Source: Rhodohalobacter sp. SW132 (GTDB taxonomy: Bacteria > Bacteroidota > Rhodothermia > Balneolales > Balneolaceae). Taken from it: 64,000 bases of DNA. Position 1 is the first letter of the stretch. Each line of letters opens with the position of its first letter. The translations under genes and the position numbers were made by a program. Under the pieces are notes generated by a model. The model made no database searches and was not told the DNA's origin. It saw only the letters and a program-made list of their open reading frames with translations. Shown piece after piece: positions 14,486-40,979 of the stretch. The stretch is taken from NCBI RefSeq assembly GCF_003390325.1, contig NZ_QUOK01000001.1, forward strand, positions 558,001-622,000. Direction: 5' to 3'.

Positions 14486-17305
14486 ATGAGCAACCCCAAA
14501 GCGGAACCAGCTGCCCCATCAAAAAACGGAACTCCCGCACAAGAGCGGCCCATTGTTGTAAAAGGAGCACGTGTCCACAATCTCAAAAATATTGATGTTG
14601 AGATCCCTCGTAATAAATTAACCGTCATTACCGGCGTATCGGGTTCGGGTAAATCGAGCCTGGCATTTGATACGATCTACGCCGAAGGACAGCGCCGGTA
14701 CGTGGAGAGCCTTTCGAGCTATGCACGTCAGTTCCTGGAGCGGATGGACAAGCCCGATGTGGACTACATGCACGGCATCTCGCCCGCCATGGCGATTCAA
14801 CAGAAAACCACTTCCTCCAACCCGCGGTCAACAGTAGGAACCACCACCGAAATTTATGACTACGTCCGACTGCTTTTTGCACGGATCGGCAGAACCATAT
14901 CCCCAAAATCCGGAAAAGAAGTTCAAAAAGATTCCACAAAAACCATCCTCAAAGAGCTTTATGAGCAGTTTGATGATGGAACGAAATTCTACGTTCTATT
15001 TCCGATCGATCTGCGCGAGGGGCGAAAAATAGAGGAACATCTCGCCGTTCTGAAAGAGAAAGGTCTCACGCGGATATTGAATGTGAAAGATGAATCCATG
15101 ACCGATCTATCGCGTGATGAAGTGGATCCAAAAAGTATCAAACCGAAAACACACCGGGTGCTGATCGACCGGCTTGCGCTTAAGCAGGATGACGGTACCC
15201 GCAGCCGGATTGCAGATTCTCTTGAAACGGCCTTTCGTGAAGGAAGCGGGCGATGTTCCGTATTGATTCGCGGCGGAGAGGAACTGCCGTTCAGCGAGCG
15301 CTTTGAGCGCGACGGTATGGAGTTCCTGGAACCCTCACCACAGATGTTCTCCTTTAATAATCCATTTGGCGCATGTGATTCATGCGAAGGATTTGGAAAA
15401 GTATCCGGGATTGATGAAGACCTGGTGATTCCCGATCACGATAAATCACTACGCAATGGCGCCATCGCCCCGTTTGATTCGCCCAAATTCAGCAGCAACC
15501 TGAAGGATCTGATCAAAGTGGCGGCTAAGTACCAGCTGCCGATTGATGTTCCCTATAAAGATCTCGATAAGGAGACGAAGAAAATCATTTGGAACGGGAA
15601 AGATCAATACGTTGGAATCCGCGGGTTTTTTGAACAGGTGAAGAGTCAGTTTTATAAAGTTCACATGCGGGTTTTTTACTCACGCTATCGCGGATACAGC
15701 CGCTGCCCGGAGTGTGAAGGATATCGTGTGAGGAAAGATGCGCTCTACGTTATTGTAGGCGGACTCCATATCGGGGAAGTTACCGAAATGACGATCGGGC
15801 ACGCCCGTGAGTTTTTTGATGATCTGAAGATCACCGATTTTGAGCAGGAAGTGGCAGGACAGATTTTATATGAGATCCGCAAGCGGCTGAAATACCTGGA
15901 TGAAGTCGGGCTGGACTACCTGACGCTCGACCGGCTGACAAATACGCTCAGCGGCGGTGAATCGCAGCGTATCAGCCTGGCGAACTCACTCGGCAGCTCG
16001 CTTATCGGAAGTCTCTATGTGCTTGATGAACCGACCATCGGGCTTCATCCACGCGATAACGACCGGCTGATCAACATTCTGAAATCACTTCGTGATATCG
16101 GAAACACCGTTTTGGTGGTTGAGCACGATCCCGAGATGATGAAAGCCGCTGACAACATTATTGATATCGGACCATTTGCCGGTTCACACGGTGGCGAAGT
16201 TGTGTTTAGCGGATCGTATGAGAATCTATTGAAAGCCAAAACCCTGACCGGCAAATACCTGAGCGGACGGATGGAGATTCCGATTCCTGAGAAGCGCAGA
16301 AAAGGAAACGGAAAATCGATCTCTATTACCGGAGCAACCGAACACAACCTGAAGAGTATTGATGTGGATTTCCCGCTCGGGAAACTGATCTGTGTGACGG
16401 GTGTTTCAGGATCGGGTAAATCCACCCTGGTGCACGACACACTTTACGCACACATTCAGAAGCAGCTTGGCACATGGAAAGAGAAGGTTGGGCGAAACCG
16501 CGGAATTGACGGCGTTCGAAATGTTGAGGCTGTTGAGATGGTGGATCAAAGCCCGATCGGGCGTTCCACGCGTTCCAATCCTGCTACCTATACCAAGGCG
16601 TTTGATGGCATCCGTGATCTTTTTTCCAATACACGTCAGTCAAAGATCATGGGCTATACACCCGGTCACTTCTCCTTCAATGTGCCGGGCGGGCGATGTG
16701 AAAGCTGCCAGGGCGAGGGCGTTCAGAAAATTGAGATGCAGTTTATGGCTGACATCGAACTGGTGTGCGAGGAGTGCAGCGGCACACGCTTTAGGAAAGA
16801 TATTCTGCAGGTAAAATACCGCGGACATAACATTCACGATGTGCTGGAGATGAGTGTGAGCGACGCGATTGAGTTTTTTGTGGATGAAACATCCATTATC
16901 AGTAAGCTGCAGCCACTTGAGGATGTTGGGCTTGGCTACCTGAAACTGGGTCAGAGTGCCACAACGCTATCCGGCGGGGAGGCACAGCGGGTGAAGCTGG
17001 CCAAATTCTTATCCAAAACGAACACCGATCAAACCCTCTACTTTTTTGATGAACCGACCACCGGCCTGCATTTTGAAGATATCTCCAAGCTGCTGAAATC
17101 GTTTAACGAACTTGTGAACCAGGGGCATTCGGTGATTATCATCGAACACAACCTGGATGTGATTAAAGCGGCCGACTGGCTGATCGATATCGGTCCTGAA
17201 GGCGGGTTCAGAGGCGGGCAGATTGTAGGTACCGGCACGCCTGAAGAGATTGCGGAAATTGAAGAGAGCCATACGGGACGTTTTTTGAGGGATGTTTTGG
17301 GTTAG
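14486..17305 (+). CDS. uvrA: Excinuclease ABC subunit A
   Basis: Damage-recognition ATPase of nucleotide excision repair, 939 residues, the usual length. Two ABC modules are visible: Walker [10 protein letters not shown] at 50-58 and a second GVSGSGKST in the C-terminal half; signature motifs [14 protein letters not shown] and [14 protein letters not shown]; Walker B segments [13 protein letters not shown] and [13 protein letters not shown]. Zinc-binding cysteines appear as CDSCEGFGK and CPECEGYRV in the first half and CESCQGEG with CEECSGTRF in the second. All catalytic features of a functional UvrA are present. ATG 14486 starts a short Pro/Ala-rich leader before the conserved [14 protein letters not shown]. 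Confidence 0.98.
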
Positions 17306-23555: not shown

Positions 23556-25916
23556 TCAATCCAGGTGATCGGGAATATTATAATCCACTCCGTCTTCCCG
23601 GTAATCCAGCAGGTGTTCGGCAAAATAATCCCAGAGCATCCGTTCGAAGTAGCTGGAGTAACGGCCGAACCCATGGCGTGCTTCAGGGAAAATCATCATA
23701 TCAAACCGCTTGCCTGCGCGAATCAGAGCATCTGCCATTCGATAGGTGTGAGCGGGGTGAACATTGTTGTCCATCTCCCCGTGAACCAGAAGCAATCTCC
23801 CCTGCAGATTATCAGCCAGTTCCTGGTTTGCAGGAATACGCGAACTGAACGTGGTTTTTTCCTCTTTCACCTCTTCACCATCCTCATTTTCCACGGTTAC
23901 AGAGTCTGTCGATGCGGTTACGCCGTGATGAAATTCACTCCACCAGATGTTATAAACGTTATTGTCGTGATTTCCGGCAGATGAAACCGCTACTTTAAAA
24001 AATTCGGGGTAGGTCAGCAGTGCGGCCGTGCTCATAAATCCACCGCCGGAATGACCGTAAATTCCTACGCGGCTGAGGTCGATATAGTCACGGCGGGCAC
24101 CGAGCTGTTCAATTCCGTAGCGGTTATCTGCCAGCGCGTAATCCCGCAGATTATCGTAACCATAGCTGTGATACCATTTTTCCCGCAACGGGCTTCCTCC
24201 ACGGTTCCCCATCGCGATCACCACAAATCCAACTTGCGAAAGTGAGTGAGCTCTTGCTGCCGTTCCGCCTACCGAAAACCCTCTCGGATAGGGCTCAACC
24301 TGCGGACCCGGATAGACGTACGAAATGATCGGGTACGATTTAGAAGAATCAAAATCAGCCGGTTTCCACATCACACCGAACAGATCTGTGGTGCCATCTG
24401 CAGCTTTCACACTGAACTCTTCCGGCAGAGTGTAGCCGACCTCATACATTTTGGTGAGGTCCACCTCTTCAAGATCCATTATCGTCCGGCCCTGATTATC
24501 TCTCAACACAGCTTTTGTCGGCAGATCGGGACGTGAAAAGTTCTGCACAAAGTAATCCCGGGAATCACTCATACTCACGGAATGGTTTCCGTTTTCGGAT
24601 GTGATGAGTTCCTGGCCTGATCCGTCAAATTCAACCTTGTAATAATGAGCATGGAACGGATTTCGATCTTCTTCCAGACCAAACCCTTCAAAATAGATGG
24701 TGCTCGCGGCCGTATCGATGGCAGCCACATCAGCTACCATAAAGTGTCCGTCCGTAATTCGGTTCACCAGGTTGCCTTCGCTGTCGTATCGATAAAGCTG
24801 TCCCCAGCCGGTGCGTTCGCTCCACCAGATGTACTCCTCGCCGTTGTTAATGACCCCAAGATAGGAGTTCATCACATTAAAATAGGGTTCACTTTTTTCC
24901 GACCATAACACTTCCGTTTCACCCGTTGTGGTATTGGCTTTTACGACGTCAATTTCATCCCACGTTCGGTTTCGCCGTAAAATCCACAGATAGTCCGATT
25001 CATCCGATGTATAAACTCCGCCGCCGCTGACGTAAACTCCGCCAAGGGACTGATCGGGCCATTTATCGGTATCGAGCCGGATTCCTTCGTGGGTTTCCAT
25101 ATCAAACACCATAATTTCATCCTGGTAATGATTTTCCTCACCCGGCAGATTGTATTTGTAGGTCTCCAGTTCCGGACGCTGCGCGATGGTGTTTATCACC
25201 CAAAGTTCATCCACATCGCGCCAGTCCTGACGCTTTACATACAGTTTTTGAGAATCTTCAAACCAGCTGGCACGGGATCGCAGTCTTTCTGTGGATGTTG
25301 TATCGCCGTGATCGGCCTGGTAGCTGTACCAGCGTTCCCCGTCGTTCGTCAGGCGGATTTCCGTACTATCCGGGTCATCGGCCTGCATCACATAGAGATC
25401 GTGCTCACGGGAAAATGCGATCCAGGTACTGTCGGGCGAGAAACTTTGCCAGCTCTCACTTTCATCCGGTTTCAGCGAATCACCCCGAACCAGCTCATCC
25501 CGGTCGATGTGATATTTGAATTCCAGGCTATCGATATGAAAGGTGAAAAAACCGCGATCGGTATCGTAATCAAATTCTTTGAGATCGAGGTCTTTTGCAT
25601 TGAATCCCCGGCTGAACTCTTCAGAAAGCTGAGCGGCCATTTCATCCCGATCGAAAAGCGGGCGCCGGGTTTGGTTTCCTGCATCCACAAACTCCCATCG
25701 TTTCCCGTTTGTATCTTCCCATTCGTACCAGAAACGGTCTTCATCTTCAATCCAACGGGTACGCAAAAAAGTGTTGCCCGTCATTTTTTGCATTTGTTGA
25801 GAAGTAAACTGCTCGGCGAGTTCAAAGTTGGCGTCCTGGGCAATTGTATCAGATGAGAAGAGTGCAAATGTGATAAAAAGGGAGATTGAAATCGAAAGAG
25901 AGTAGCGTAAGATCAT
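23556..25916 (-). CDS. Dipeptidyl peptidase IV-like S9 serine peptidase, exported
   Basis: A 786-residue prolyl-oligopeptidase-fold enzyme. An N-terminal signal peptide (ends DTIAQ) is followed by a beta-propeller of about 500 residues and then an alpha/beta hydrolase domain. The catalytic triad is visible: Ser623 in YGHSGGGFMS, Asp716 in HGEMDNNVHP and His748 in EARHGFG. Family members release dipeptides from peptide N-termini, often after proline. Location should be periplasmic. The segment TVENEDGEEVKEEKTTF is a charged insertion within the hydrolase domain. It is a single gene upstream of the SusCD region and may assist peptide use. Confidence 0.94.
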   Translation of the reverse strand: MILRYSLSISISLFITFALFSSDTIAQDANFELAEQFTSQQMQKMTGNTFLRTRWIEDEDRFWYEWEDTNGKRWEFVDAGNQTRRPLFDRDEMAAQLSEEFSRGFNAKDLDLKEFDYDTDRGFFTFHIDSLEFKYHIDRDELVRGDSLKPDESESWQSFSPDSTWIAFSREHDLYVMQADDPDSTEIRLTNDGERWYSYQADHGDTTSTERLRSRASWFEDSQKLYVKRQDWRDVDELWVINTIAQRPELETYKYNLPGEENHYQDEIMVFDMETHEGIRLDTDKWPDQSLGGVYVSGGGVYTSDESDYLWILRRNRTWDEIDVVKANTTTGETEVLWSEKSEPYFNVMNSYLGVINNGEEYIWWSERTGWGQLYRYDSEGNLVNRITDGHFMVADVAAIDTAASTIYFEGFGLEEDRNPFHAHYYKVEFDGSGQELITSENGNHSVSMSDSRDYFVQNFSRPDLPTKAVLRDNQGRTIMDLEEVDLTKMYEVGYTLPEEFSVKAADGTTDLFGVMWKPADFDSSKSYPIISYVYPGPQVEPYPRGFSVGGTAARAHSLSQVGFVVIAMGNRGGSPLREKWYHSYGYDNLRDYALADNRYGIEQLGARRDYIDLSRVGIYGHSGGGFMSTAALLTYPEFFKVAVSSAGNHDNNVYNIWWSEFHHGVTASTDSVTVENEDGEEVKEEKTTFSSRIPANQELADNLQGRLLLVHGEMDNNVHPAHTYRMADALIRAGKRFDMMIFPEARHGFGRYSSYFERMLWDYFAEHLLDYREDGVDYNIPDHLD

Positions 25917-26622: not shown

Positions 26623-28014
26623 TTAATATCCGGGGTTCTGATCCAGATTAGGGTTATTATCTACCTCGGATTGGGAGATAATAGACAATAACCTGTAATC
26701 AGTATAGGGCACAGTTGTCGCACCCGCCTGTTTTGGAATATCCATCCCTCGACGCTTCAGATCAAACCATCTGTGACCTTCGAAATGAAGCTCACGACGT
26801 CTTTCAACCATGATCTCTTCAATGATCTCATCCTTGTCCGCAGACACAAATGGCGAGAGTCCCCGTGCTGTCTGAAGCTCTTCAAGATTGGAAAGAGCAT
26901 CAGATAACTGATCGAGCTCGGCATGAGCTTCTGCCTTAATCAGATAGAGTTCGGGTAATCGGATAATCGGCACATTGTCATCAAACGGACCTGTAGAACA
27001 TGCCCATTTCAAGGTATAAGGAAACCCATCCGAATGAACCGCAAAAAGATTCAACCGATAGTCATCCTCGTCAAATGTTTCCATCAGGTTTTCAGATATA
27101 GTAATGTCGAACCAGTGTGTTGGGTTGGTCCACGGACAAAGCCCAACATTTGACCCAAGGCTCTCTTCAACAGGATCTATATTGAGTTCCCAAAGAGATT
27201 CCGGGTTTGGAACACTATTGAATGGATTTGATTCGAAATCGGATACATCATCAAGAAGCTGAATACTTGTATTGGCAAGTGCTTCGTCAGCATATTCAAT
27301 GGCTTCTTGCCAGTTTTCAAGGTAAAGGTGTACTCTTGCCATTAATGCATTTGCAGCAACATAATTGGCAAAATATACTCCCCGATCATCAGAGGATAGC
27401 AACTGAATTGCTTCATCAAGATCATCTACTACCTGCTGATATATAACGGTGTTACTTTCACGGCCTCTATAGTCAGCATCGTTCACATCACGAGTTGGTT
27501 CTGTGCGAAGAATGGCACTTTGCGTCCATCCATCAACTTCACGCCCAGGCTCATACCCGTACGTTCTTGCAAGGTCAAAGTAAGCAAGACCTCTTTGAAA
27601 CAGGGCTTCGCCACGTAATCGGTCGCGTGTTGACTGTGGCACGTTTTCAACTTCTGAAGAACCTGCAATAACATAATTGGCCTCATTTATGGTAAGATAT
27701 GCAGTGTTCCAAAAGGAGATGTGTGATCCCTGACTGTTCACTGCATAATTATCACCGCGACCGGATGTCGTCGGGTGCTGATCGGTATTATCTGCTAAAA
27801 TATCCGGGGTGAGAACAAGTTCTCTGCCATAACGGAATTCGCTTTGCAATCGGTTGTAAACTGAGGTTAGAATCGCCTCAATTCCCTGGATATTCTCCTG
27901 TGCCGTTACCGGATCCACATTGGTGGTTGGACTGGTATCCAATAAACCGTCACAGCTCATAAACAACACCACGCCGAACAAAGCGATAGTAATTTTACTT
28001 GCTAATTTATACAT
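26623..28014 (-). CDS. susD: RagB/SusD family nutrient-uptake outer-membrane lipoprotein
   Basis: A 463-residue substrate-capture lipoprotein lidding a SusC channel. The signal ends VVLFMSC (lipid Cys21). The SusD pattern follows: NIQGIEAILTSVYNRL, a TPR-like helical body with RLRGEALFQRGLAYFDLART, and the C-terminal RagB signature IIRLPELYLIKAEAHAEL followed by EIMVERRRELHFEGHRWFDL. It lies 42 bases downstream of susC. The peptide-hydrolase genes across the divergent gap suggest that the ligand is a peptide or acylated amino compound, not a glycan; this is inferred from context only. Confidence 0.94.
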   Translation of the reverse strand: MYKLASKITIALFGVVLFMSCDGLLDTSPTTNVDPVTAQENIQGIEAILTSVYNRLQSEFRYGRELVLTPDILADNTDQHPTTSGRGDNYAVNSQGSHISFWNTAYLTINEANYVIAGSSEVENVPQSTRDRLRGEALFQRGLAYFDLARTYGYEPGREVDGWTQSAILRTEPTRDVNDADYRGRESNTVIYQQVVDDLDEAIQLLSSDDRGVYFANYVAANALMARVHLYLENWQEAIEYADEALANTSIQLLDDVSDFESNPFNSVPNPESLWELNIDPVEESLGSNVGLCPWTNPTHWFDITISENLMETFDEDDYRLNLFAVHSDGFPYTLKWACSTGPFDDNVPIIRLPELYLIKAEAHAELDQLSDALSNLEELQTARGLSPFVSADKDEIIEEIMVERRRELHFEGHRWFDLKRRGMDIPKQAGATTVPYTDYRLLSIISQSEVDNNPNLDQNPGY

Positions 28015-28056: not shown

Positions 28057-31000
28057 TTAGAACCTGATTTCAGCCCCAAATTCTAATGAACGGGGTAATG
28101 GATATCGTGTCTGATTATGGGCGAATACCTCAGGATCGAGACCAGGGTAGTTTGTCCATGTAAGCAAGTTTTCCGCTCTCGCAAAAACTGAAAGTGAGCT
28201 CAGACTCATCCTTTGAACCAACCCTGCAGGTAAATTGTAGCTTACGTTAATGCTCTTCAACCTTATATATGAACCATCATACAGTCTTCTGTCAGAGAAC
28301 AAGTTATGCCCTGTTCCTCCCGGGAAAGAAGACAAAGTGTATGGCTTTGGAATATCTGTAATGTCACCAGGTTGTTGCCAACGCCTGAACATATCAGGTG
28401 AAAGGTTACGACCTCTATGGGGAGCGAGATGGAAGTTGGAGTACTGTTCATCCAGAATACGGCTTCCGAATTCATACTGGAAGAAAATATCCATAGATAC
28501 CGGGCCATAAGAAAACTGGTTACTCCAACCGCCATAATAGTCCGGTTCAATACTACCAGCGGTAAAGTAGTCACTGCCGCCAACTGAATAGGTTAGTTCC
28601 CCATCCGCGTCATAAAACAAAGCACGCCCATCTGCAGGGTTAACACCGGCATAATTACGTACCCACCACTGATGGCGCTGCTGGCCGACATAAATTCTGG
28701 AGGAGGTAATGTTCGGATCACTCATCCATTCCTGGTCTCCTTCAAGTGATAGAACTTCACTTCGGGGAAAAGTAATATTGAAATCGGATGACCATGAAAA
28801 TTGTCCGTAACTCAGAACTACAGCTCCAAGCTCGATTTCAAGACCTTCGTTTCTTACAGATCCTACGTTTTCAGTGATACTGCTGAAGCCACTATCATTA
28901 GGCAGATTTCTGTTTAATAACAGGTTTTCATTATCGGTTCTGTAAGCACCAAAACTACCGTAAACCCGATCTTCAAACAGAGCAAAATCAACTGCGATAT
29001 CGGTACTTCTTGCTTGCTCCCAGCCCAAATTGGCATTACCCAATTGAGAAGGTCTCAGGCCTGTACTGCCCATATATGTTCCGCCAGAACCAAAAAGCGC
29101 GAGGCTGGAAAAATCATCGATACCAGCATTTCCGGTAATTCCATAGCTGACACGAGGTTTCAATTGGTTAACCCAAGCGACATCCTGCAAAAAGCCTTCC
29201 CGTGCAGCATCCCACGCGAAAGCCATGGAGTAAAAGAGCCCCCACCGTGTATCAGAACCAAACCGGGAGTGTCCATCATACCTCAGATTAAAGCTGGCAA
29301 AATAGCGCTGGTCATAGTTGTACTGAAACCTTGAGAACGCTCCAGCTGTTTTATACTGTGTGGTACGTCCCGCAACAGCGGATGCAACACCAGCCAGATT
29401 TAATTGACCTAATAAAGGGTTTGGTATCATTTCACCTGTTGCTGAGTGAAACCGGTAATCGCGCACCCTGTACTCAGTGCCACCTACAACACTTATATTA
29501 TGTACAGCCTGAAAGCTGGTAATGTAATCAGCAACAATGTTACCGCTGAAATTCTCATTCTCAGTTGTGCGCTCAAAAACAGACCCGCCATAGTTATTGT
29601 ATCTTGGAATACTTGGATTATTATACCTGCGGTCCCGTGAGAGTCGAATATCGGTGTTAAATTGACCTCTGAAGGCGAGATTTTCATTAACATTGTATGT
29701 AGCAGCAAGGTTACCGATTAATTGGAATTCCCGGCCAATTCGTTCTTCTTCTCTAAGTACCTGCAGCATATTGTAGGTAATGGCAGGAATATCCTGATTA
29801 TAGGTCCCGTCTTCATTGAAGATTGGGGTTGTAGGCCGGGTAGTAACCGCACCATGAAACGGACTATTGATAAAATTACCGCCGGTTTCACTTTGTCCAG
29901 TCATTGTTGAACGGGATAGATTAACATTGGAAGTAAAAGATAATCTATCTGATGCGTCGTGATCGATATTGACACGAAGGGTAGTTCGCTCATATGATGA
30001 ACTTAAAATGGCTCCCTCTACATTATTATATCCACCGGAAACGAAAAAGCGAGTTGTTTCACTGCCACCTGCTGCAGAGAGATTATAGTTTGAATTTGTC
30101 CCGGTTCTCGTCATTGCATCAAACCAGTCGTAAGTACCCACTTCATCAGGATGTCCATATGTATTAATGGCACTTTGGCGTGCTGCTTCCGGATCATTTC
30201 CAAGATCTAAAGCCCGGTTTACAGCTGCTTCCTGCATAAATTCAACAAATTGAGGACCGGTCATGAGATCATATGTACTATTTAACTCTTGGGTGCCAAA
30301 TCTTACATTTGCCGTGAACTGAGTAGCCCCCTGCTGTCCTCTTCTTGTGGTAATAAGAACTACACCATTGGCACCCTGAGCACCATATATAGCAGTTGCT
30401 TCAGCATCACGAAGAACATCGATAGATTCTATATCAGAGGGATTTAATCCTGACAATAATGCTGTATTGGTAGTGGCAATGTTAGAGCGAAAATAATCTT
30501 CGAGCGGAACGCCATCTACTATATAAAGAGGTGTATTACTGGAGTTGATCGAACCTGTACCGCGGATCAAAATTTCTGCCTGAGATCCGGGAGCACCACT
30601 CGAACCAACAAATTGCAACCCCGCTGAGCGTCCCTGAAGGGCTTGATCAGGTGTTTGAATAGCACGAGAAGTAATTTGATCAGCCCTGACCGAACTTATT
30701 GCACCGGTAACTTCGCGTCTTTGACGAATTCCATACCCGGTTACAACGAGTTCATCAAGCCCAATCTCTTCGGGTGATAGCTGGAGATCCAGCTGCAGCA
30801 TTTCTCCGGAAGATACTGAAATTGACTGCTGGAGTTGATTATACCCGATAAAAGAAACTTGTATCGTGTAATCTCCGGGGTCTATTCCGGTAAGTTCGAA
30901 TTCTCCATCGACATTTGTATTCGTACCCTGTTCGGTTTCCAGGATAAAAATTGTCGCTCCCACAAGGGATTCATTTGTGATTTCGTCCGATACCGTTCCC

Positions 31001-31113
31001 TGCAACCCGGTTTGTGCAGAAACTGCCAATGGGATTGACATGCAGAGTGCAATAAAAAGTGAGCAGAACCATCCTACTCTCGGTTTTTTAAATGTTGTAT
31101 CTCTATTTATCAT
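28057..31113 (-). CDS. susC: SusC/RagA family TonB-linked outer-membrane transporter
   Basis: A 1018-residue TonB-dependent channel. After the signal (ends AVSAQ) come a carboxypeptidase-D regulatory-like domain (about 37-120, GTVSDEITNESLVGATIFIL), a TonB-box-like stretch DELVVTGYG, the plug with the SusC signature LQGRSAGLQF and SIDVLRDAEATAIYGAQGAN, and a barrel ending LPRSLEFGAEIRF. It is the first gene of a three-gene operon with susD and a Calx-beta-like lipoprotein. There is no sigma/anti-sigma pair next to it and no extended N-terminal signalling domain. Its operon points away from five exported peptidase and amidase genes. Confidence 0.96.
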   Translation of the reverse strand: MINRDTTFKKPRVGWFCSLFIALCMSIPLAVSAQTGLQGTVSDEITNESLVGATIFILETEQGTNTNVDGEFELTGIDPGDYTIQVSFIGYNQLQQSISVSSGEMLQLDLQLSPEEIGLDELVVTGYGIRQRREVTGAISSVRADQITSRAIQTPDQALQGRSAGLQFVGSSGAPGSQAEILIRGTGSINSSNTPLYIVDGVPLEDYFRSNIATTNTALLSGLNPSDIESIDVLRDAEATAIYGAQGANGVVLITTRRGQQGATQFTANVRFGTQELNSTYDLMTGPQFVEFMQEAAVNRALDLGNDPEAARQSAINTYGHPDEVGTYDWFDAMTRTGTNSNYNLSAAGGSETTRFFVSGGYNNVEGAILSSSYERTTLRVNIDHDASDRLSFTSNVNLSRSTMTGQSETGGNFINSPFHGAVTTRPTTPIFNEDGTYNQDIPAITYNMLQVLREEERIGREFQLIGNLAATYNVNENLAFRGQFNTDIRLSRDRRYNNPSIPRYNNYGGSVFERTTENENFSGNIVADYITSFQAVHNISVVGGTEYRVRDYRFHSATGEMIPNPLLGQLNLAGVASAVAGRTTQYKTAGAFSRFQYNYDQRYFASFNLRYDGHSRFGSDTRWGLFYSMAFAWDAAREGFLQDVAWVNQLKPRVSYGITGNAGIDDFSSLALFGSGGTYMGSTGLRPSQLGNANLGWEQARSTDIAVDFALFEDRVYGSFGAYRTDNENLLLNRNLPNDSGFSSITENVGSVRNEGLEIELGAVVLSYGQFSWSSDFNITFPRSEVLSLEGDQEWMSDPNITSSRIYVGQQRHQWWVRNYAGVNPADGRALFYDADGELTYSVGGSDYFTAGSIEPDYYGGWSNQFSYGPVSMDIFFQYEFGSRILDEQYSNFHLAPHRGRNLSPDMFRRWQQPGDITDIPKPYTLSSFPGGTGHNLFSDRRLYDGSYIRLKSINVSYNLPAGLVQRMSLSSLSVFARAENLLTWTNYPGLDPEVFAHNQTRYPLPRSLEFGAEIRF

Positions 31114-31814
31114 AGTTATCTACATTTAGTTGATTAGGTGAGGTTTTAATTCTGATTGAGCAATTGTGATTGTATTTATGAAAAGCGATAGCTTTACCAC
31201 TTCGGTCAATGTAAGACAATTAAACTATTTGATCCAAGCTTAATTATTTGATTATTTTTGTAGGAGTAATGTCATATTAATTTCAAAAAATAAAGCTATT
31301 ATTACGCTGATAGTTAAATTTTTAACAAATGAAAAGCTATGTATTCATTAAATTTTATTTGAGTTTGAACAACACGTATCGCCCCCTTTACCGTATAAAA
31401 GATCAACCATTAATTGGAAAATTAACTTCCAGAATACTTGTACGACTATATAGTTTAGAAGCTCAAAAATACGCCTCAACTAATTTAAACGAGCCTCGTG
31501 AAAACTATTAGAATAAAGTTATTCCAAAAGAACCTGGCATTTAGCTCACTTTCCAAATCAGGTTGGGTATCTTCTACAAGTCACATAATTACGCCTACAT
31601 GTTTAAACTGGAAAAATCTGAATTTCAAATAATGGTTATGCTTGTAAGTGAAAGAAAAAGTGACCCAGATCGAATAGAGATTTCAAACCCTTTAATTAAC
31701 GCAGAAATATGGATGAAATAGTTATATATAACTGATGAATTCTCAGGTAAAACATCAGTCATGCCTGATGGATATCTGGCTCAAAAAAATATTCTTAAAC
31801 TAAAAATACCATTT
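31114..31814. other. Divergent AT-rich control region between susC and the hydrolase cluster
   Basis: About 700 bases, much more AT-rich than the flanking genes, between two divergent transcription units. It must contain the promoters for both. A possible FCB-type promoter is seen on the plus strand near 31232-31260 (TTG, then TATTTTTG after about 21 bases). A 60-codon frame at 31329 has no coding look and was not called. No operator palindrome was clear. Confidence 0.5.
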
Positions 31815-33377
31815 ATGAAAAAGTTGATACTGTTCGCAGTACTTTTTGCCATTCCATTTACTGCTTTATCTTTGCAAATGGAAACAAAAACGGATGACTA
31901 TCGGGTAGCGGTTGTCCGCTTTTCTCATGAAACCTGCACCTTCTGTCCCGGGGGAGATCCGGGCATTGAAGACTGGACCCATCGCGGAGAGCCGGCCGTT
32001 GGGGAAGAGGTATTCGGTATGAGTGGATATATGCGCGGATTTGTTTCCCAGTCTGAAGAATTTGGGGATATCAACCTGATTGGCCTTTCAACCCCAAGAG
32101 GTGTTTTTGGCGGAACGTCCAGAAGCTGGAACCAGGAAGAGGCGTTCGACCACTTTGTAAATCTCATGCTGGAAGACCTGAAAGAAGCGATGCCGGTGGA
32201 TGGGGTTTACCTGTCACTTCACGGAGCCATGGCTGTAAGAAATATCGAACGTCCCGAGGCAGAAATTGCGAAACGGTTTCGAGAGGTAGTTGGCCCCGAT
32301 GTACCGATTGTAGGAACATTTGATCTGCACGGAAATGAAGATGAAGAATTCCTTAAGTGGGCAGACGGTGCTTTTGTGACCAAGCGCTTTCCGCACTATG
32401 ATGCCTTTCGCCAGGGCCAAAGAGCTTCCCGCTATCTTCGAAGTGTAATGAGAGGCACCTATGAGCCAACAACAGCATCACGCCGCCCGCCAATTCTGAC
32501 AGCAACCGTACTGCAATGGACGGGTCAGTCGCCGATTATGGATGTAATGGAACGTGCCCGCCGCTGGGAAGATCGCGAGCCGGGTGCATATGTAAATGTA
32601 TTTTTAGGGTTCCCATGGTCGGATGCACCAACAGTTGGGACCAGTATCCATGTGATGACTAACAACGACCAGGAACTGGCCGATGAGATCGCCACCGATA
32701 TGGCAGAGTTTATCTGGCGGGTTCGCAGCGACTGGGCTCATGGAGAATATCCCATGCCTGAAGAAGCTGTTCGGCTAACCCGTCAAGCCATTGCTGCAGG
32801 AGAAACACCTGTAGTATTGGCCGACTATTGGGATCGGCCCGGGGATGCTACCTGGACTCTTCAGGAATTGATTAACCAGAGCGTGAGTAATGTTCTTATA
32901 TCTGCCCTGACAGATCAGCCCGCACTCGATTATATCTGGGAAGAAGACCTTCAGCCGGGCGATGCGTTCGACCGTGAAGTTGGGGGGTACACCGGGGAGC
33001 AGGCAGGCTCACCCGTTCGCATTCAGGGTGAACTTGTCTGGAGGGGTTCCCGGTGGGGATATGACCGGACAGCTGCCATTTCATTCGGTGATGGAAATAT
33101 GCTTCTTCTTGCCCCAGGTTATCAGCAAAACAGCACACTCGCCAGTTCAAGGGTGGGCCCTGTTGATCCGTACGATTACGATGTGTATGTACTCAAAACG
33201 AGGGTGCATTTCCGCAGAGGGTATGATGAAACCGGGTATGCAAAAACCATCCACATCGTGGATGCACCGGGCGATTGGTTCGGAACCATCCGGCTGGAGG
33301 CTCTCGACTATCAAAATGTAAATATCGAGGAATTTTATCCCTTTGGAAATCCTGAATACGATCCTGCTGAAAAGTAA
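31815..33377 (+). CDS. Exported M81 family metallopeptidase (microcystinase MlrC-like)
   Basis: A 520-residue protein with a Sec signal (MKKLILFAVLFAIPFTALSL) followed by the M81 domain. Family motifs: VRFSHETCTF (His38-Glu39), LSLHGAM (His136), GTFDLHGNEDEE (Asp170, His172) and RFPHYDA (His194). The spacing of His136, Asp170, His172 and His194 equals, as I recall it, that of the zinc site of MlrC, the enzyme that cleaves linear microcystin products. The M81 C-terminal domain occupies the last 200 residues. The start at 31815 was chosen over 31761 because it places the signal peptide at the N-terminus. Most family members lack an export signal. Confidence 0.9.
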   Translation: MKKLILFAVLFAIPFTALSLQMETKTDDYRVAVVRFSHETCTFCPGGDPGIEDWTHRGEPAVGEEVFGMSGYMRGFVSQSEEFGDINLIGLSTPRGVFGGTSRSWNQEEAFDHFVNLMLEDLKEAMPVDGVYLSLHGAMAVRNIERPEAEIAKRFREVVGPDVPIVGTFDLHGNEDEEFLKWADGAFVTKRFPHYDAFRQGQRASRYLRSVMRGTYEPTTASRRPPILTATVLQWTGQSPIMDVMERARRWEDREPGAYVNVFLGFPWSDAPTVGTSIHVMTNNDQELADEIATDMAEFIWRVRSDWAHGEYPMPEEAVRLTRQAIAAGETPVVLADYWDRPGDATWTLQELINQSVSNVLISALTDQPALDYIWEEDLQPGDAFDREVGGYTGEQAGSPVRIQGELVWRGSRWGYDRTAAISFGDGNMLLLAPGYQQNSTLASSRVGPVDPYDYDVYVLKTRVHFRRGYDETGYAKTIHIVDAPGDWFGTIRLEALDYQNVNIEEFYPFGNPEYDPAEK

Positions 33378-33580: not shown

Positions 33581-34660
33581 ATGAAAACCCAAACATCTCT
33601 TTTAAGTAGTGCCATTTTTGCTGCCATTTTATTCGTCTCATGCACATCAACAGAAACATCAGAAATGGCTTTCCCGGGGTCAGAATGGGAATGGATGTCT
33701 GATGTAACAGAATATGGCTGGTCGGAAGAAGGTTTACAGGCCGCCCGCGATTTGACCGACGAGCTTCATACATCGGCCGTAATGATAGTCCACAAAGGCA
33801 AAGTTGTGGATGCCTGGGGTGATCTTGACTACAAACATCGATGCCATTCCATCCGTAAAAGTTTCCTGAGTGCTCTCTATGGTATACATATTGAAAACGG
33901 AACTATAAGCAGGGATGCGACTATTGAAGATCTGGGTATTGATGACAATGAAGGCTTGTCCGATCTTGAAAAGCAGGCAACTGTTCAGATGATACTGCAG
34001 GCCCGTTCAGGAGTCTACCATCCTGCACTTTTTGAAACGGCAGCAATGACTGCGGCCAAACCAGATCGCCATTCTGCTGCGCCTGGTGAGCAGTATCACT
34101 ACAACAACTGGGATTTTAATGTCGCGGGGACTATTTATGAGCAGGAAACAGGTGAAGCAATTCACCAGTCATTTATGGATCGTATAGCAATGCCAATTGG
34201 AATGCAGGACTATGCCCCTGAAGATGGGCGCTATGTAACTGGTGAGGAATCTCGGCATGCAGCCTATCCGTTTGTGATGAGCACACGAGATATGGCACGT
34301 TTTGGCCACCTTTTTTTAAATTATGGTTTATGGGATGGAGAATATGTTTTACCGGAGGGCTGGGTTGAAGAAAGCACTGCTGTGCACTCTGCCCTGGAAG
34401 AAGAACGGACCGATCGAGGAGGCTACGGCTACATGTGGTGGGTTGAAGTAGATGGCCGGCATTTTGGCAGTGTGGATCGGGTACCGGAAGGAACCTACAC
34501 CGGGCGAGGTGCCAGAGGGCATGTACTTGCAGTAGTACCAAAACTTGACCTTGTTTTCGTTCACAGAACCAATACGGCAGTTTCAGGTCAGCGAACTACC
34601 TATGATGACATCGGCAGGGTTTTTGAACTTGTTGTTGATGCCCTCGAAACATCCAATTAA
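33581..34660 (+). CDS. Serine hydrolase lipoprotein, beta-lactamase fold (S12)
   Basis: A 359-residue protein with a lipoprotein signal (lipid Cys21 in AAILFVSCTST). The S12 catalytic residues are visible: Ser90-x-x-Lys93 in CHSIRKSFLSALYG, Tyr174 in YHYNNWDFN, and a C-terminal GARGH element in place of the KTG box. Relatives include esterases, D-aminopeptidases, 6-aminohexanoate-dimer hydrolase (with a similar YxNW segment) and MlrB, which opens linear microcystin. It sits between the M81 enzyme and the cyanophycinase fusion, all on the same strand. Substrate choice cannot be told from sequence, but an amide or ester in an unusual peptide is plausible. Confidence 0.88.
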   Translation: MKTQTSLLSSAIFAAILFVSCTSTETSEMAFPGSEWEWMSDVTEYGWSEEGLQAARDLTDELHTSAVMIVHKGKVVDAWGDLDYKHRCHSIRKSFLSALYGIHIENGTISRDATIEDLGIDDNEGLSDLEKQATVQMILQARSGVYHPALFETAAMTAAKPDRHSAAPGEQYHYNNWDFNVAGTIYEQETGEAIHQSFMDRIAMPIGMQDYAPEDGRYVTGEESRHAAYPFVMSTRDMARFGHLFLNYGLWDGEYVLPEGWVEESTAVHSALEEERTDRGGYGYMWWVEVDGRHFGSVDRVPEGTYTGRGARGHVLAVVPKLDLVFVHRTNTAVSGQRTTYDDIGRVFELVVDALETSN

Positions 34661-34677: not shown

Positions 34678-36672
34678 ATGTATAAGCTTTCAACAATCAC
34701 TTCCTTCCTGATTTTCCTCTTTATATCAATGAGTGTACATCAGAGCTTTTCCCAGAACCTGGTGATTGCAGGAGGAGGAGGCCTTTCTGATGAAATTCGT
34801 CTCCATCTCCTGTCCCTTAGTGAAAAGGAACAGCCAAATGTACTGATTATTCCACATGCCACTGCTGAGGACAACTGGACTGCCCGCGGTGAACAGCAAA
34901 CGGAAGTGTTCAACACATTAGGAGCTGAACATGTTTCGGTTTTGGAGCTGGATAACCGGGAAGAAGCGATAAGGCTGATTGAAAGGAGTGACGTGATCTG
35001 GATGCCGGGCGGAAGCCAGCAGCGGCTGATGAACGCATTGGTTGAAGCCGGTGTGGCCGATGCCGTGAGGCAGCATGTGGCATCGGGGATCCCAACGGGA
35101 GGAACCAGTGCCGGTGCGGCAATAATGAGTAAAACGATGATCGCCAACAGCGAGCGTGATGAGGAGACAGGGGCTCTCTTGCCAGTGATGTCGGAAGGGC
35201 TGGGATTTTGGGAAGAGGTGATCATCGATCAGCACTTTTCAGAACGAAACCGTCTCGAACGCCTGGAGTATGCTGTTGAAAACCATCCCGGGTATGTTGG
35301 GATCGGTATTGATGAAGGCACTGCTGTTGTGTTTGATGGAAGCCAATTTAAGGTGATTGGAGAAGGCACGGTTACGGTGGTTTCCAATACAGGCAGCAGT
35401 GTTGATGTCAGGGTTTTAGATAGCGGAGTAACGGTCAATACGGAAGGTTTTTCAGGGCTTCAAAAACCATTCAAAGATGAAGTTTTTGCTTTGGCCGACA
35501 AAGAGATAGTTCAGCAGGCATTCCGTTTTATAAAAGAGTATGACGATCAAACTGTGGCCAACCAGATTCACATCACGGAAATACCTGCACCCCCTTTTTC
35601 GGAAGAACGTCGTGCGGCAAGGTATGCGGAAATGATGCGTGAATTTGGCCTTACTGATGTAACCATTGATGAAGAGGGTAACGCCCTTGGCAGGCGCCCG
35701 GGCCGATCGGGTGACCGAACCATCGTCTTTTCTGCCCATCTCGATACTGTTTTCCCTGAGGAGACCGATGTGACCGTAACCGTTCGCAACGATACACTTT
35801 TTGCGCCTGGAATTTCCGACGATGGAAGGGGGCTTACTACGCTGCTCACTGTGCTAAAAACCATGGAAGAACTGGGTATCGAAACCGAAGATGATATCCT
35901 CTTTGTCGGTACAGTGGGCGAAGAGGGTCTCGGTGATCTGAGAGGTGTGAAATACCTGTTCAGGGAAGACGGCCCTCAAATTGATGCGTTTATTTCTGTG
36001 GATGGAAGCCACGGCACGCGAATTGTTAACCAGGCCCTCGGGTCGTACCGGTATCGGGTTACCTTTAATGGCACCGGCGGACACTCCTGGGGTGCTTTTG
36101 GCACTGCAAATCCGGCGCATGCCCTCGGTCGTGCCATACATCATTTTGATGAAATGGCATCCGAATATGTAGCTGAGGGTCCGCGCACAAGCTATAATGT
36201 GGGCCGGATCGGGGGAGGGACTTCCGTCAACTCCGTACCGTTTTCAAACTGGATGGAGGTGGATATGCGCTCGGTTGATCAGGCCCGGCTGTATGATATG
36301 GATGAAATTCTTAAAACAGCGGTTCAGCGTGGAGTTGATGAAGCCAATGAAGTTCGTACCCGGGGTGGTGAGTTGTCTGCTGATCTGGATATGATCGGAA
36401 AGAGGCCTTCGGGAGATATTGCCCCGTCTGTTCCATTTATCCAGAGAGCCAAAGCAGCAACCGTCTATTTTGGTGATGACTATGTATTACGCCGCTCTTC
36501 AACCGATTCGAATGTATCGATTTCTTTGGGAATCCCATCCATGACACTTGGCGGAGGTGGCAGCAGCGGTGGCGCTCACTCCCTTGATGAATGGTGGTAC
36601 AATAATGAAGGACACAAAGGTATTCAAAGAGCCTTTTTGATTCTACTATCTGAAGTGAAATTGGCTGAATAA
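34678..36672 (+). CDS. Cyanophycinase-like S51 domain fused to an M20 metallopeptidase, exported
   Basis: A 664-residue two-domain enzyme. The signal (ends HQSFSQ) is followed by a cyanophycinase-like domain (about 28-265) with nucleophile Ser144 in GGTSAGAAIM and the family segment IIDQHFSERNRLERL (His186). The second domain (about 275-664) is an M20 peptidase with ligands His354 and Asp356 (AHLDTVF), Asp381/382 (GISDDGRG), Glu415/416 (TVGEEGLGD), Asp442 and His634 (GAHSLDEWW), plus a dimerisation insert. Cyanophycinase releases beta-Asp-Arg dipeptides from cyanophycin; an attached M20 unit could cleave the product. Both active sites look intact. It begins 18 bases after the S12 gene. Confidence 0.92.
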   Translation: MYKLSTITSFLIFLFISMSVHQSFSQNLVIAGGGGLSDEIRLHLLSLSEKEQPNVLIIPHATAEDNWTARGEQQTEVFNTLGAEHVSVLELDNREEAIRLIERSDVIWMPGGSQQRLMNALVEAGVADAVRQHVASGIPTGGTSAGAAIMSKTMIANSERDEETGALLPVMSEGLGFWEEVIIDQHFSERNRLERLEYAVENHPGYVGIGIDEGTAVVFDGSQFKVIGEGTVTVVSNTGSSVDVRVLDSGVTVNTEGFSGLQKPFKDEVFALADKEIVQQAFRFIKEYDDQTVANQIHITEIPAPPFSEERRAARYAEMMREFGLTDVTIDEEGNALGRRPGRSGDRTIVFSAHLDTVFPEETDVTVTVRNDTLFAPGISDDGRGLTTLLTVLKTMEELGIETEDDILFVGTVGEEGLGDLRGVKYLFREDGPQIDAFISVDGSHGTRIVNQALGSYRYRVTFNGTGGHSWGAFGTANPAHALGRAIHHFDEMASEYVAEGPRTSYNVGRIGGGTSVNSVPFSNWMEVDMRSVDQARLYDMDEILKTAVQRGVDEANEVRTRGGELSADLDMIGKRPSGDIAPSVPFIQRAKAATVYFGDDYVLRRSSTDSNVSISLGIPSMTLGGGGSSGGAHSLDEWWYNNEGHKGIQRAFLILLSEVKLAE

Positions 36673-36984: not shown

Positions 36985-38640
36985 TTGAAGAAATCCCGGC
37001 TTACATCCTACCTAAAATTCCTGCGCTTGCTTGCAATCGCTTTATGTTCAGGACTAGTTTTGACAGGAATTCTCTATTCAAACATACATGCCAAAACAGA
37101 CCAATCAGAAAATAACACCGTTTATGATGAACCATTCGATATCCTCATCAAAAACGGACGAATCTTAGATGGCACTGGCAATCCCTGGTATTATGCTGAT
37201 ATCGGGATTAATGAAGACCGTATTGTTTGGGTTGGAAAGTCAGATGATGTAACAGCCAATGTAACTCTCGATGCAGAAGGACTTTACGTATCCCCCGGTT
37301 TTATTGATGTTCATTCACACGCAGGGTCCGGACTGGCATCGGAATCACTTAGCCATGGTCAGCCACTCCTTGCACAGGGTATTACTTCAGTGGTCGTCAA
37401 TCCGGACGGCGGCGGAAGTATCGACATTGCAGGTCAGCGGGAAAGCCTTGAAGAACACGGTATCGGGGTGAATGTGATGCAGCTTGTACCCCACGGGACA
37501 ATTCGGAGAGAAGTGATTGGCAATGATAATCGCCAGCCAACCGAACAAGAGCTTGAAGAGATGAAATCGATCGTGAAAAAAGGAATGCAGGAAGGAGCAT
37601 TCGGACTTTCAAGCGGGCTTTTTTACACTCCGGGAGCCTACGCGGAGACCGAAGAGGTAATTGAGCTGGCAAAAGTTGCGGCACAATATAATGGCGTATA
37701 CAGCAGCCATATTCGGGATGAATCGGATTATGATGTGGGGCTTATTGCGTCGGTTGATGAAGTAATTCGCATTGCTGAAGAGGCCAAACTTCCCGGGATT
37801 GTTTCTCATATAAAAGCGCTGGGGACCGGGGTCTGGGGATATTCATCGGCTGTGATTAATCGAATAGATCGTGCGCGCGATGAAGGAATTGAAGTTTTTG
37901 CTGATCAGTATCCATACCCGGCTTCATCTACAAATCTTACGGCTGTGCTGATACCGGCCTGGGCGCGTGAAGGCGGACGAGCAGACATGCTCCAGCGGCT
38001 GGATGACCCGGAGTTGCTGGAGGAAATAAAAACGGAGATGGTGGCGAACCTGGAACGCCGGGGCGGTGCGGAAAGCATTCAGATTGCTGACTATTCTGCC
38101 GATGTTGATCAGGAAGGAAAAAGATTGAGTGAAATCGCCGCGCAGATGGACGAAGATGCAATTGATGCCGCCATCAGTTTGATCAAAGTTCAGAACCCAA
38201 GAATTGTATCGTTTAATATGCTTGATGAAGATGTAAACCGATTTATGCAGCAGTCCTGGACGATGACAAGCTCCGACGGCGGCCTGGTTGAAATGGGGGA
38301 AGGCGTTGTCCATCCACGGAATTATGGTTCATTCCCACGAAAAATCCATCACTATGTTCAAAACGAAAATGTCATCGAACTGTCGTTTGCAATCCGAAGT
38401 ATGACCAGCCTGCCGGCATCCGTATTTGGCCTTTACGATCGCGGGTTACTCAGGGCCGGTCAGATTGCGGATATCACCATTTTTAACCCCGAAACAGTCC
38501 GGGATCTTGCCACCTACAGCGATCCCCATCAGCTTTCTGAAGGTGTGGAGCATGTGCTGATCAATGGAAAGTTTGCGGTAAAAAATGGGGAATTCCAGAA
38601 TGAACTCACCGGCAGGGTACTTTTTAATCAAAGAGATTGA
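36985..38640 (+). CDS. D-aminoacylase / N-acyl-D-amino-acid deacylase family amidohydrolase
   Basis: A 551-residue metal-dependent amidohydrolase. An N-terminal membrane anchor or uncleaved signal (about 13-32) precedes the domain. Motifs match the D-aminoacylase group: GFIDVHSH (His110, His112), GLSSGLFYTPGAYAE, YSSHIRDES, VSHIKALG, the metal-binding MTSSDGG and HPRNYGSFPR. The enzymes remove acyl groups from N-acyl-D-amino acids or act on related N-acyl peptides. The start is TTG at 36985. The stop overlaps or abuts the next gene region, suggesting one transcript with the acylase. Export distinguishes it from most cytosolic family members. Confidence 0.92.
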   Translation: MKKSRLTSYLKFLRLLAIALCSGLVLTGILYSNIHAKTDQSENNTVYDEPFDILIKNGRILDGTGNPWYYADIGINEDRIVWVGKSDDVTANVTLDAEGLYVSPGFIDVHSHAGSGLASESLSHGQPLLAQGITSVVVNPDGGGSIDIAGQRESLEEHGIGVNVMQLVPHGTIRREVIGNDNRQPTEQELEEMKSIVKKGMQEGAFGLSSGLFYTPGAYAETEEVIELAKVAAQYNGVYSSHIRDESDYDVGLIASVDEVIRIAEEAKLPGIVSHIKALGTGVWGYSSAVINRIDRARDEGIEVFADQYPYPASSTNLTAVLIPAWAREGGRADMLQRLDDPELLEEIKTEMVANLERRGGAESIQIADYSADVDQEGKRLSEIAAQMDEDAIDAAISLIKVQNPRIVSFNMLDEDVNRFMQQSWTMTSSDGGLVEMGEGVVHPRNYGSFPRKIHHYVQNENVIELSFAIRSMTSLPASVFGLYDRGLLRAGQIADITIFNPETVRDLATYSDPHQLSEGVEHVLINGKFAVKNGEFQNELTGRVLFNQRD

Positions 38641-38678
38641 TCCTTTTCACTTCAGTAAAATTATTTCAGCACAAAATT

Positions 38679-40979
38679 ATGCGATACCTCATACTGCTCA
38701 CTTTTATCACTTTTTCCTTTTACTCCTGCGGCTCGGCCGAACCGGCAACGGAACCGGCTGAAAATGTTATAGAAACCAGGGTATCGAATAATGATCTTTC
38801 TGAACGGGTTGTTGTCCGCCGCGCTCAACACGGCGTACCTCATATTTATGCAAATGATATCGAAGCAGCCGGTTATGCGATGGGATATCTGCAGCTGGAA
38901 GATTACGGTGAGCAAGTTGCCGAACTGCTGCTGAAAGCGAGGGGAGAATGGGCAAAATACAACGAATTGTCCGGGCCGGAACGCACGAGTGCCATCAACA
39001 ACGATGCCGTAAACCGCCTGGAATATCGCCGTGCTGTTGAAACGTGGCAGAAGCTTGAACCCGACACTCGCAAGATGCTCAGCGGATTTGCAAAGGGTGT
39101 TAACCGCTACATTGAACTTCACCCGGATGAGTTTGACGATTGGGTGGAACCGCACTACACCGGCTATGATGTCCATGCCCGCGATATCGTCTCTCCGAGC
39201 GGAGGATCGATCCGGAGGTTTCTTGCAGCCCATGAACGCAGAATGCGGGATGAAGATCGCAATGAATCGATCGGATCAGCAGAACAACAAAATTTTTATG
39301 AAAATCAAACCGTTTGGGCGAGTGTAGCGTCTGAAACAGAAGAGCCACATCACGACGCTGGTTCCAACGTCTGGGCTTTCTCCCCGGAGCGGACCACATC
39401 CGGAAATGCCATTCTTATGCGAAATCCGCATCTTTCATGGGATGCCGGCTACTACGAGGCAAGGATCCACATCCCGGGAAAACTGGATTTCTATGGCGAT
39501 TTCAGGATTGGCCGAGCGCTCGGAATCATCGGCGGTTTTAATGAACGCCTGGGCTGGTCAACCACCAACAACAATCCGGATCTGGATGAAATCTACGCCT
39601 TCGAAGCTGACCCTGACCGCCCGGACCATTTCTTGCTGGATGGGGCTTCCATCCCGCTTACCCATGAATCTTTGCGAATTGAATTTAAACACGGCAGCGC
39701 ACTCGGAACGGAAACCCGCGAGTTCTGGAGTACACCATTCGGACCGGTTATCCATCGCGGGGAAGGAAATATCTACATCATAAAATCTGCAGGTGATGGC
39801 GAATTCAGAACCGGAGAGCAGTTTTTTAAAATGATGAAATCTCAATCACTGGAAGAGTGGAAATCGGCGATGCAGATTCGGGCACGGATTTCATCAAACC
39901 TGACCTATGCAGATGCAGACGGAAATATATTTTATGTATGGAATGCCTCCCTGCCTGTCCGTCCCCATGAATCGGGAAATGATACAACCGCTATTTCAGT
40001 CACTCAGTCAGACGAAATGTGGCAGGATATTATTGATTGGGATGATCTGCCTCAGCTTTTGAATCCCGAAGGCGGCTACCTTAGAAACGAAAATGACACC
40101 TTCCACTTTACCAACCTGCACGAAATCCTTCACCCCGACGATTTTTCTGATGATTTTCCAGAGCCGCAATTCAGGCTCCGAAGCCAGCTCTCACACGAAC
40201 TGATTCATAACAATCAAACCTTTTCCCTCGAAGATGTTGTGGAACTGAAACACAGTATGCGCATGCTGATGGCTGATCGTGTGCTGGAAGATTTGATTGA
40301 TGCCGTCGAGAATACAGATCCACACGGCGAAATTGCCGACGCCCTGCAACTGATGAAAAATTGGGATAGTACCGTTGCCCGGGAAAGCCGCGGCGGCGTC
40401 CTGTTCAAAACCTGGTGGAGCCGGTATGTCTCCACTGCTGATACCATTCGTACAGATAGTTCTCCCGCTTCGGTTGGCTACTCTGCCGATGCCGAAAAGC
40501 TATTCCGTCAGCCCTGGTCATTCGAAAATCCTGAAACAACCCCTAACGGTCTTGCTGATTTCGATCGTGCTGCAGAAGCGTTTGAATGGGCTGTAGAAGA
40601 GGCAAAAGAAAGGTATGGTCACTGGAACCTCCCGTGGGGTGATGTTCATCGTGCAGTAATCGGGGATACAGATGTTGCCGTAGGCGGGTGTACCGGCCTT
40701 CTCGGGTGTTACCGCGTGCTTTGGTTTACGGATCATCGTGATGATGATAAAAAATATGAAGTCCGCGGCGGTGACGGTTGGGTATCTGCGGTAGAATTTG
40801 GTGAAACTCCCCGGGCATATACGATCCTTGCTTATGGACAAAGTTCTAAAGAAGATTCTCCGTTCTATAACGATCAGCTAACGCTATTCGCAAACAATGA
40901 AATGACACCTGCCGCCTTTTCCCTGCAAGAGGTAGAAAGTCAGCTGATCCGTGAATACCGGCCGGGAGCTGATCATTAA
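38679..40979 (+). CDS. Penicillin acylase family (Ntn-hydrolase) lipoprotein
   Basis: A 766-residue enzyme that should self-cleave into alpha and beta chains. The lipoprotein signal ends FYSCGS (lipid Cys17), which fixes the start at ATG 38679, not at 38637. The alpha region carries the family's opening ERVVVRRAQHGVPHIYANDI. The nucleophile is Ser229 in HHDAGSNVWAF, the expected GSN start of the beta chain, followed by NPHLSW and GFNERLGWSTTNNNPD. Relatives cleave penicillins, acyl-homoserine lactones, and N-acyl peptides. It is 38 bases after the D-aminoacylase-like gene and probably co-transcribed with it. Confidence 0.92.
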   Translation: MRYLILLTFITFSFYSCGSAEPATEPAENVIETRVSNNDLSERVVVRRAQHGVPHIYANDIEAAGYAMGYLQLEDYGEQVAELLLKARGEWAKYNELSGPERTSAINNDAVNRLEYRRAVETWQKLEPDTRKMLSGFAKGVNRYIELHPDEFDDWVEPHYTGYDVHARDIVSPSGGSIRRFLAAHERRMRDEDRNESIGSAEQQNFYENQTVWASVASETEEPHHDAGSNVWAFSPERTTSGNAILMRNPHLSWDAGYYEARIHIPGKLDFYGDFRIGRALGIIGGFNERLGWSTTNNNPDLDEIYAFEADPDRPDHFLLDGASIPLTHESLRIEFKHGSALGTETREFWSTPFGPVIHRGEGNIYIIKSAGDGEFRTGEQFFKMMKSQSLEEWKSAMQIRARISSNLTYADADGNIFYVWNASLPVRPHESGNDTTAISVTQSDEMWQDIIDWDDLPQLLNPEGGYLRNENDTFHFTNLHEILHPDDFSDDFPEPQFRLRSQLSHELIHNNQTFSLEDVVELKHSMRMLMADRVLEDLIDAVENTDPHGEIADALQLMKNWDSTVARESRGGVLFKTWWSRYVSTADTIRTDSSPASVGYSADAEKLFRQPWSFENPETTPNGLADFDRAAEAFEWAVEEAKERYGHWNLPWGDVHRAVIGDTDVAVGGCTGLLGCYRVLWFTDHRDDDKKYEVRGGDGWVSAVEFGETPRAYTILAYGQSSKEDSPFYNDQLTLFANNEMTPAAFSLQEVESQLIREYRPGADH

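Follow-up and report, generated by a model that had tools for sequence, protein, structure and literature searches.

The window analysed here is a stretch of 64,000 nucleotides from Rhodohalobacter sp. SW132, a member of the Balneolaceae in the Bacteroidota (contig NZ_QUOK01000001.1, positions 558,001 to 622,000 of the forward strand), and all positions below refer to it unless another locus is named. Its central part holds a series of hydrolase genes, one of which joins a domain of the type that degrades the nitrogen-storage polymer cyanophycin (cyanophycinase, family S51) and a metallopeptidase of family M20 in a single reading frame, and a divergent group that includes a SusC/SusD-type pair. 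The features are the following:

23556-25916, minus strand: S9 DPP-IV-like peptidase
26623-28014, minus strand: SusD/RagB-type partner
28057-31113, minus strand: SusC/RagA-type TonB-dependent transporter, transcribed away from the hydrolases
31761-33377, plus strand: exported M81 (MlrC-like) protein, upstream of the fusion gene on the same strand
33581-34660, plus strand: S12 (beta-lactamase-like) serine hydrolase with a lipoprotein-type leader, 17 bases before the fusion gene
34678-36672, plus strand: S51-M20 fusion gene, ATG start, 664 aa, no internal stop
34678-34752, plus strand: signal peptide MYKLSTITSFLIFLFISMSVHQSFS, residues 1-25, without a lipobox, read from the sequence
34756-35388, plus strand: S51 cyanophycinase domain, residues 27-237 (Pfam, NCBIfam, PDB match, alignments, fold match to 3en0/7uqw)
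35107-35109, 35233-35235 and 35314-35316, plus strand: S51 catalytic codons for Ser144, His186 and Glu213
35389-35463, plus strand: linker, residues 238-262, of low pLDDT in the model
35464-36669, plus strand: PahZ2-like M20 domain, residues 263-664, up to the C-terminus (Pfam, PDB, alignment, Foldseek)
Within the M20 domain: ligand/catalytic residues His354, Asp356, Asp381, Glu415, Glu416, Asp442 and His634
Within the M20 domain: dimerisation (lid) domain, residues 455-547
36985-38640, plus strand: exported amidohydrolase (Amidohydro_3, D-aminoacylase-like), downstream
38637-40979, plus strand: penicillin-acylase-family enzyme with a lipoprotein-type leader, overlapping the amidohydrolase gene

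Domains and active sites of the fusion protein

Pfam places Peptidase_S51 at residues 29-227 of the protein (E 2.8e-32), Peptidase_M20 at residues 351-649 (E 7e-16) and M20_dimer at residues 455-547 (E 1.3e-8). The S51 half scores 177.3 bits against the NCBIfam cyanophycinase model TIGR02069, above the curated cut-off of 126.6, and residues 50-237 match the cyanophycinase 3en0 in a sequence search of the PDB (E 1.7e-30). The same search gives PahZ2 (7ljh) as the nearest solved relative of residues 279-640 (E 4e-92, 42% identity), and the scores of the M20 half against the NCBIfam models for DapE, ArgE, CPG2 and PepT are weak. Pfam found no M14 match in the fusion protein; its second domain is an M20, so it does not belong to the CphZ type. 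The fusion brings two known enzyme families together in a domain combination that is new and was found a single time.

Residues Ser144, His186, Glu213, Asp184, Arg190 and Arg192 of the S51 half are invariant across 19 aligned S51 proteins, as are all the M20 residues listed above across 16 aligned M20 proteins. Furthermore, Q114, S144, D184, Q185, H186, R190, R192, R195 and E213 align with residues of Synechocystis CphB (3en0), the motifs GGSQQRL, GGTSAGA, DQHFSERNRLERL and GIDEG of the fusion corresponding to GGDQLRL, AGTSAGA, DQHFHNRNRMARL and GIDED of CphB. We take the polymer-binding residues of the CphB structure to be the Gln, the Asp-Gln pair and the three Arg in those motifs, and this whole presumed cyanophycin-contact set (Q114, D184, Q185, R190, R192 and R195) is kept in the S51 half. 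Such conservation is not trivial, because another S51 group lacks the context of the last Arg. This subgroup, mostly from Balneolaceae (loci L049, L051-L053, L056, L059 and L158), carries the pattern DQH..xRNR.FDM, without the third CphB Arg and its surroundings (e.g. DQHVIARNRHFDM), and to judge from these residues it probably has a different specificity.

The AlphaFold2 model of the fusion built on a 14-row alignment (pLDDT 83, pTM 0.64) shows two complete, mostly confident domains joined by a flexible linker. Values of pLDDT fall below 50 at linker residues 239-241 and 245-258 and in a few M20 active-site loops, residues 630-634 among them; the N-terminus forms a helix followed by a low-confidence stretch. 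In Foldseek the M20 half of this model matches PahZ2 with an E of 5e-44 and a TM score by target of 0.77, and a weaker model (8-row alignment, pLDDT 71.6) had fold matches both to PahZ2 and to the cyanophycinase structures 3en0/7uqw.

These results bear out the original prediction of a cyanophycinase domain and an M20 unit in one chain, which the open reading frame, Pfam, NCBIfam and the PDB all support, although it had mentioned neither the signal peptide nor the kinship with PahZ2. It had also held both active sites to be intact: Ser144 and His186 were named correctly, the third member of the S51 set is Glu213, the M20 ligands are all invariant, and structure prediction, where a missing site could have come to light, returned both domains complete, some of the M20 active-site loops having a pLDDT below 50.

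Distribution of the fusion

The fusion protein was searched in 395 genomes sampled across the phylum, 4 from the genus, 245 from the class and 366 from a distant order, together about 890 distinct Bacteroidota genomes, and none of them held a second S51-M20 fusion. PahZ2-like M20 proteins are common in this genome set, and among the matches listed the strong ones other than the fusion gene itself cover only residues 250-664 or so, in open frames of at most 534 aa. Two longer frames over M20 matches (671 and 890 aa), checked apart, were stand-alone M20 genes on inspection: in the long frame of L142 the M20 has a start and a leader of its own, and M81, upstream of it, lies in another frame, and that of L019 holds an M20 reading frame with its own start at 1486. 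About 20 S51 frames of 670-760 aa also occur in Bacteroidota, and the three tested as possible S51-M20 fusions consist of an S51 domain and a T9SS sorting tail. In the 92 genomes of the family every S51 gene stands alone, and identity to the S51 half does not exceed 38%. A contig scan returned only two stand-alone M20s of 75% identity, both from Balneolaceae MAGs, and no plasmid record spanned 80% of the query. The suspicion that this is not a described enzyme has so far held, since a literature search, which was not exhaustive, found no description of an S51-M20 fusion and the Bacteroidota genomes no second copy. The fusion thus appears unique.

Origin of the fusion

A tree of 23 M20s places the window M20 inside a fully supported group (100/100) of stand-alone Balneolaceae M20s, which also contains a stand-alone paralogue from the same genome (contig C5, L002; 70% identity). 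The stand-alone Balneolaceae relatives have a leader peptide of their own; in the fusion the internal M20 leader is absent and a single leader stands at the front of the S51 domain. Therefore, the fusion is derived, an S51 domain having been added to an M20 that was native and exported. The S51 half has diverged strongly (about 38% identity at the most, about 35% to CphB) and forms the longest branch of its tree (2.98), without supported relatives or clade, so that its specificity could have drifted.

Neighbouring genes

The M81, S12, amidohydrolase and penicillin acylase genes all encode export-type leaders, by inspection in every case, and the divergent SusC/SusD/S9 group also includes a DUF4843 protein. 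The IadA model was absent among the best 25 NCBIfam matches of the D-aminoacylase-like amidohydrolase. A cyanophycin utilization locus clusters a cyanophycinase, IadA or IaaA and a transporter; here the SusC/D pair and the S51 domain are present but the IaaA-type gene lies elsewhere in the genome, so the fusion cluster does not make up such a locus. The arrangement S9-DUF4843-SusD-SusC-M81-S12 recurs in the same order in a second Balneolaceae genome (G302), with proteins 63-90% identical (90% for M81). There the contig stops just behind S12, which leaves the fusion site without a counterpart to compare, and the rest of that genome yielded no fusion.

Further contexts come from the stand-alone M20s. 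In a genome from another family of the class (G504), M81 (68%), a stand-alone M20 next to it (59%) and the amidohydrolase (59%) lie within 12 kb, a stretch that gave no S51 match. In two other genomes (G139 and G175) the stand-alone M20 adjoins both an amidohydrolase homologue and a class IV aminotransferase, the latter assigned by gene order and in G139 also by Pfam. None of the 23 contexts of stand-alone PahZ2-like M20s that were examined held an S51 match, though some of them end at contig edges. These M81, amidohydrolase and aminotransferase contexts suggest that the M20 was at first part of unusual or acidic peptide breakdown and that the cyanophycinase-type domain was fused later.

Other loci were seen alongside these. 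The stand-alone M20 paralogue in the genome carrying the fusion (C5, L080:1313-9622) follows a SusC-like gene and a gene for an 885-aa M14 peptidase, forming another exported peptide-hydrolase cluster. Secreted stand-alone S51 cyanophycinase-like genes lie beside SusC/SusD pairs in other Balneolaceae (L138:2877-8339 and L139:7448-14826). Positions 14486-17305 of the window encode a 939-aa UvrA-type ABC protein, which is unrelated to the fusion.

Cyanophycin genes of the host

The genome that carries the fusion (G000) also has a canonical cyanophycin locus on contig C7 (L081:8086-13117), composed of CphA1 (1160 bits against a cut-off of 850), a CphB-type cyanophycinase without a leader (235.8 bits) and, beside CphA1, an IaaA-type asparaginase/beta-aspartyl peptidase. 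Given this separate locus, the fusion enzyme is not needed for internal turnover, and being exported, as its leader predicts, it would more likely serve to scavenge external polymer.

M20-cyanophycinase pairing in another order

Another order of Bacteroidota has a PepT-like M20 gene directly upstream of a secreted cyanophycinase gene, usually followed by a DcuC-type carrier; 16 of 23 loci, which had been chosen because of a cyanophycinase, showed the pairing. We then searched from the M20 side, with TIGR01883 across the whole order (164 genomes). In the group scoring below the cut-off of this model, a cyanophycinase adjoins the M20 in 13 of 14 newly drawn loci, the fourteenth being at a contig edge; among members above the PepT-like cut-off, none of the six fetched loci had a cyanophycinase neighbour. 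The operon M20 belongs to another subfamily than the window M20 (about 26% identity), and because of this low identity the fusion and the operon associations look independent. Examples of the trio are found at L127:1963-5383, L132:7634-9585, L160-L173 and L192-L205, and its M20 is a candidate for the beta-Asp-Arg dipeptidase that is still undiscovered in Bacteroidota.

The S51 proteins noted above, in which the T9SS sorting tail is C-terminal, are about 690 aa long (L127:14119-16200, L129:1115-3202, L132:5569-7641 and some 17 more frames). In several genomes their genes lie within about 10 kb of a cyanophycinase gene, an M14 carboxypeptidase gene being next in L127, L128 and L132, and they are probably secreted outer cyanophycinases.

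Discussion

We tentatively favour, at rather less than even confidence, an exported two-enzyme chain that scavenges cyanophycin, or a similar polymer with an Asp backbone, from outside the cell, the S51 domain acting before the M20. Ser144 of the former would attack the poly-Asp backbone at its alpha-peptide bond to release beta-Asp-Arg, and the latter, a PahZ2-type di-zinc exopeptidase, would then hydrolyse the product (the beta-Asp-Arg isopeptide or short oligomers of Asp being the likeliest substrates), leaving Asp and Arg ready for uptake. We infer in this way the substrate of each domain, their sequential action, channelling between them and a link to uptake by the SusC/D pair.

Our preference has its grounds in the cyanophycinase cut-off passed, the aligned CphB residues, the PahZ2 match and the invariant M20 set; in the single N-terminal leader, the separate locus with a leaderless CphB and the other Balneolaceae S51s beside SusC/SusD; and in the M20-cyanophycinase pairing of another order. 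The release of beta-Asp-Arg by the S51 domain, as predicted from its sequence, has good support at the level of residues. The second step is argued from the kinship with PahZ2, the fusion in cis and the independent operon pairing. That the M20 unit could split the released beta-Asp-Arg is plausible, because its nearest solved relative hydrolyses poly-Asp and another M20 subfamily occurs in cyanophycinase operons; against it, the stand-alone M20 relatives were not found beside cyanophycinases, and their conserved M81 and amidohydrolase neighbours point to a wider peptide diet. The scavenging chain must also be weighed against the long S51 branch, the lack of S51 genes near the M20 relatives (0/23), the different subfamily of the operon M20 and the IaaA-type enzyme already present in the host.

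It is quite possible, instead, that the fusion is part of a gene cluster devoted to unusual peptides of another sort (isoaspartyl, D-amino-acid or N-acylated), with the S51 domain as an Asp- or isoAsp-peptidase, the M20 as a general exopeptidase and cyanophycin not as the main substrate. The MlrC-like M81, S12, D-aminoacylase-like amidohydrolase, penicillin acylase and DPP-IV-like S9 neighbours would fit such a diet, and so would the M20 contexts of G504, G139 and G175 and the divergence of the S51 half. Nevertheless, this half retains the entire presumed cyanophycin-contact set, including three arginines that general or PepE-type S51 peptidases need not retain, it passes the cyanophycinase cut-off, and PahZ2 itself is a poly-Asp enzyme. 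We consider it unlikely that a single catalytic domain matters, the other being a scaffold or a chance leftover after two exported enzymes that share no pathway were recently joined; the single occurrence and the long S51 branch could be read in that sense, but all recognised catalytic residues are kept in both halves, and the joint is clean, with one front leader and no internal M20 leader. An assembly or sequencing artefact joining two unrelated genes is highly improbable even though no second copy was found and the G302 contig stops short of the site, since the gene is internal to a contig of 622 kb or more, the reading frame runs across the joint without interruption, the M20 leader has gone instead of surviving behind a vanished stop codon, and the GC contents of the two halves are similar (0.52 and 0.50).

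The S51 half shares its fold and Ser-His-Glu set with CphB of Synechocystis PCC 6803 (3en0, 7uqw) and extracellular CphE, together with the GGxQ, DQHFxxRxRxxRL and GIDE motifs. CphB is a stand-alone, intracellular enzyme, whereas this S51 is exported, about 35% identical and followed by a C-terminal M20 enzyme. The M20 half resembles PahZ2, the poly(aspartic acid) hydrolase of Sphingomonas sp. KT-1, in its fold, conserved ligands and lid domain, but PahZ2 lacks an S51 domain. As in the cyanophycin utilization loci of scavengers such as L21-Spi-D4 and Flammeovirga pacifica WPAGA1, as these are cited in PMC10206079, a secreted cyanophycinase-type enzyme lies near an uptake system, here the divergent SusC/D pair; unlike them, the fusion cluster has no IadA or IaaA, bears an M20 in cis instead and belongs to a genome with its own CphA1. 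The proposed second step, cleavage of beta-Asp-Arg, is also that of CphZ, a cyanophycin dipeptide hydrolase which the same source, through its ref. 49, gives as annotated in the M14/succinylglutamate desuccinylase family, while the fusion domain is an M20.

According to Sharon and Schmeing (PMC10206079), who do not mention M20 enzymes, the isoaspartyl dipeptidases that finish cyanophycin breakdown in Firmicutes and Bacteroidota remain undiscovered. Given this statement and the M20-cyanophycinase pairing, M20 peptidases are reasonable candidates for the Bacteroidota beta-Asp-Arg dipeptidase. It is tempting to go further and speculate that one exported polypeptide takes cyanophycin fully to free Asp and Arg and that M20 peptidases, fused here and encoded by a separate operon gene in another order, are the undiscovered dipeptidases of the phylum; we hold this larger proposal to be doubtful, but if true, a one-chain enzyme leading from polymer to amino acids would be useful for arginine or dipeptide production from cyanophycin. 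The fusion is most valuable for directing attention to M20 enzymes in the breakdown of cyanophycin: together with the M20-cyanophycinase-carrier trio it provides concrete candidates for the missing Bacteroidota isoaspartyl dipeptidases, a question that now can be put to a simple beta-Asp-Arg assay.
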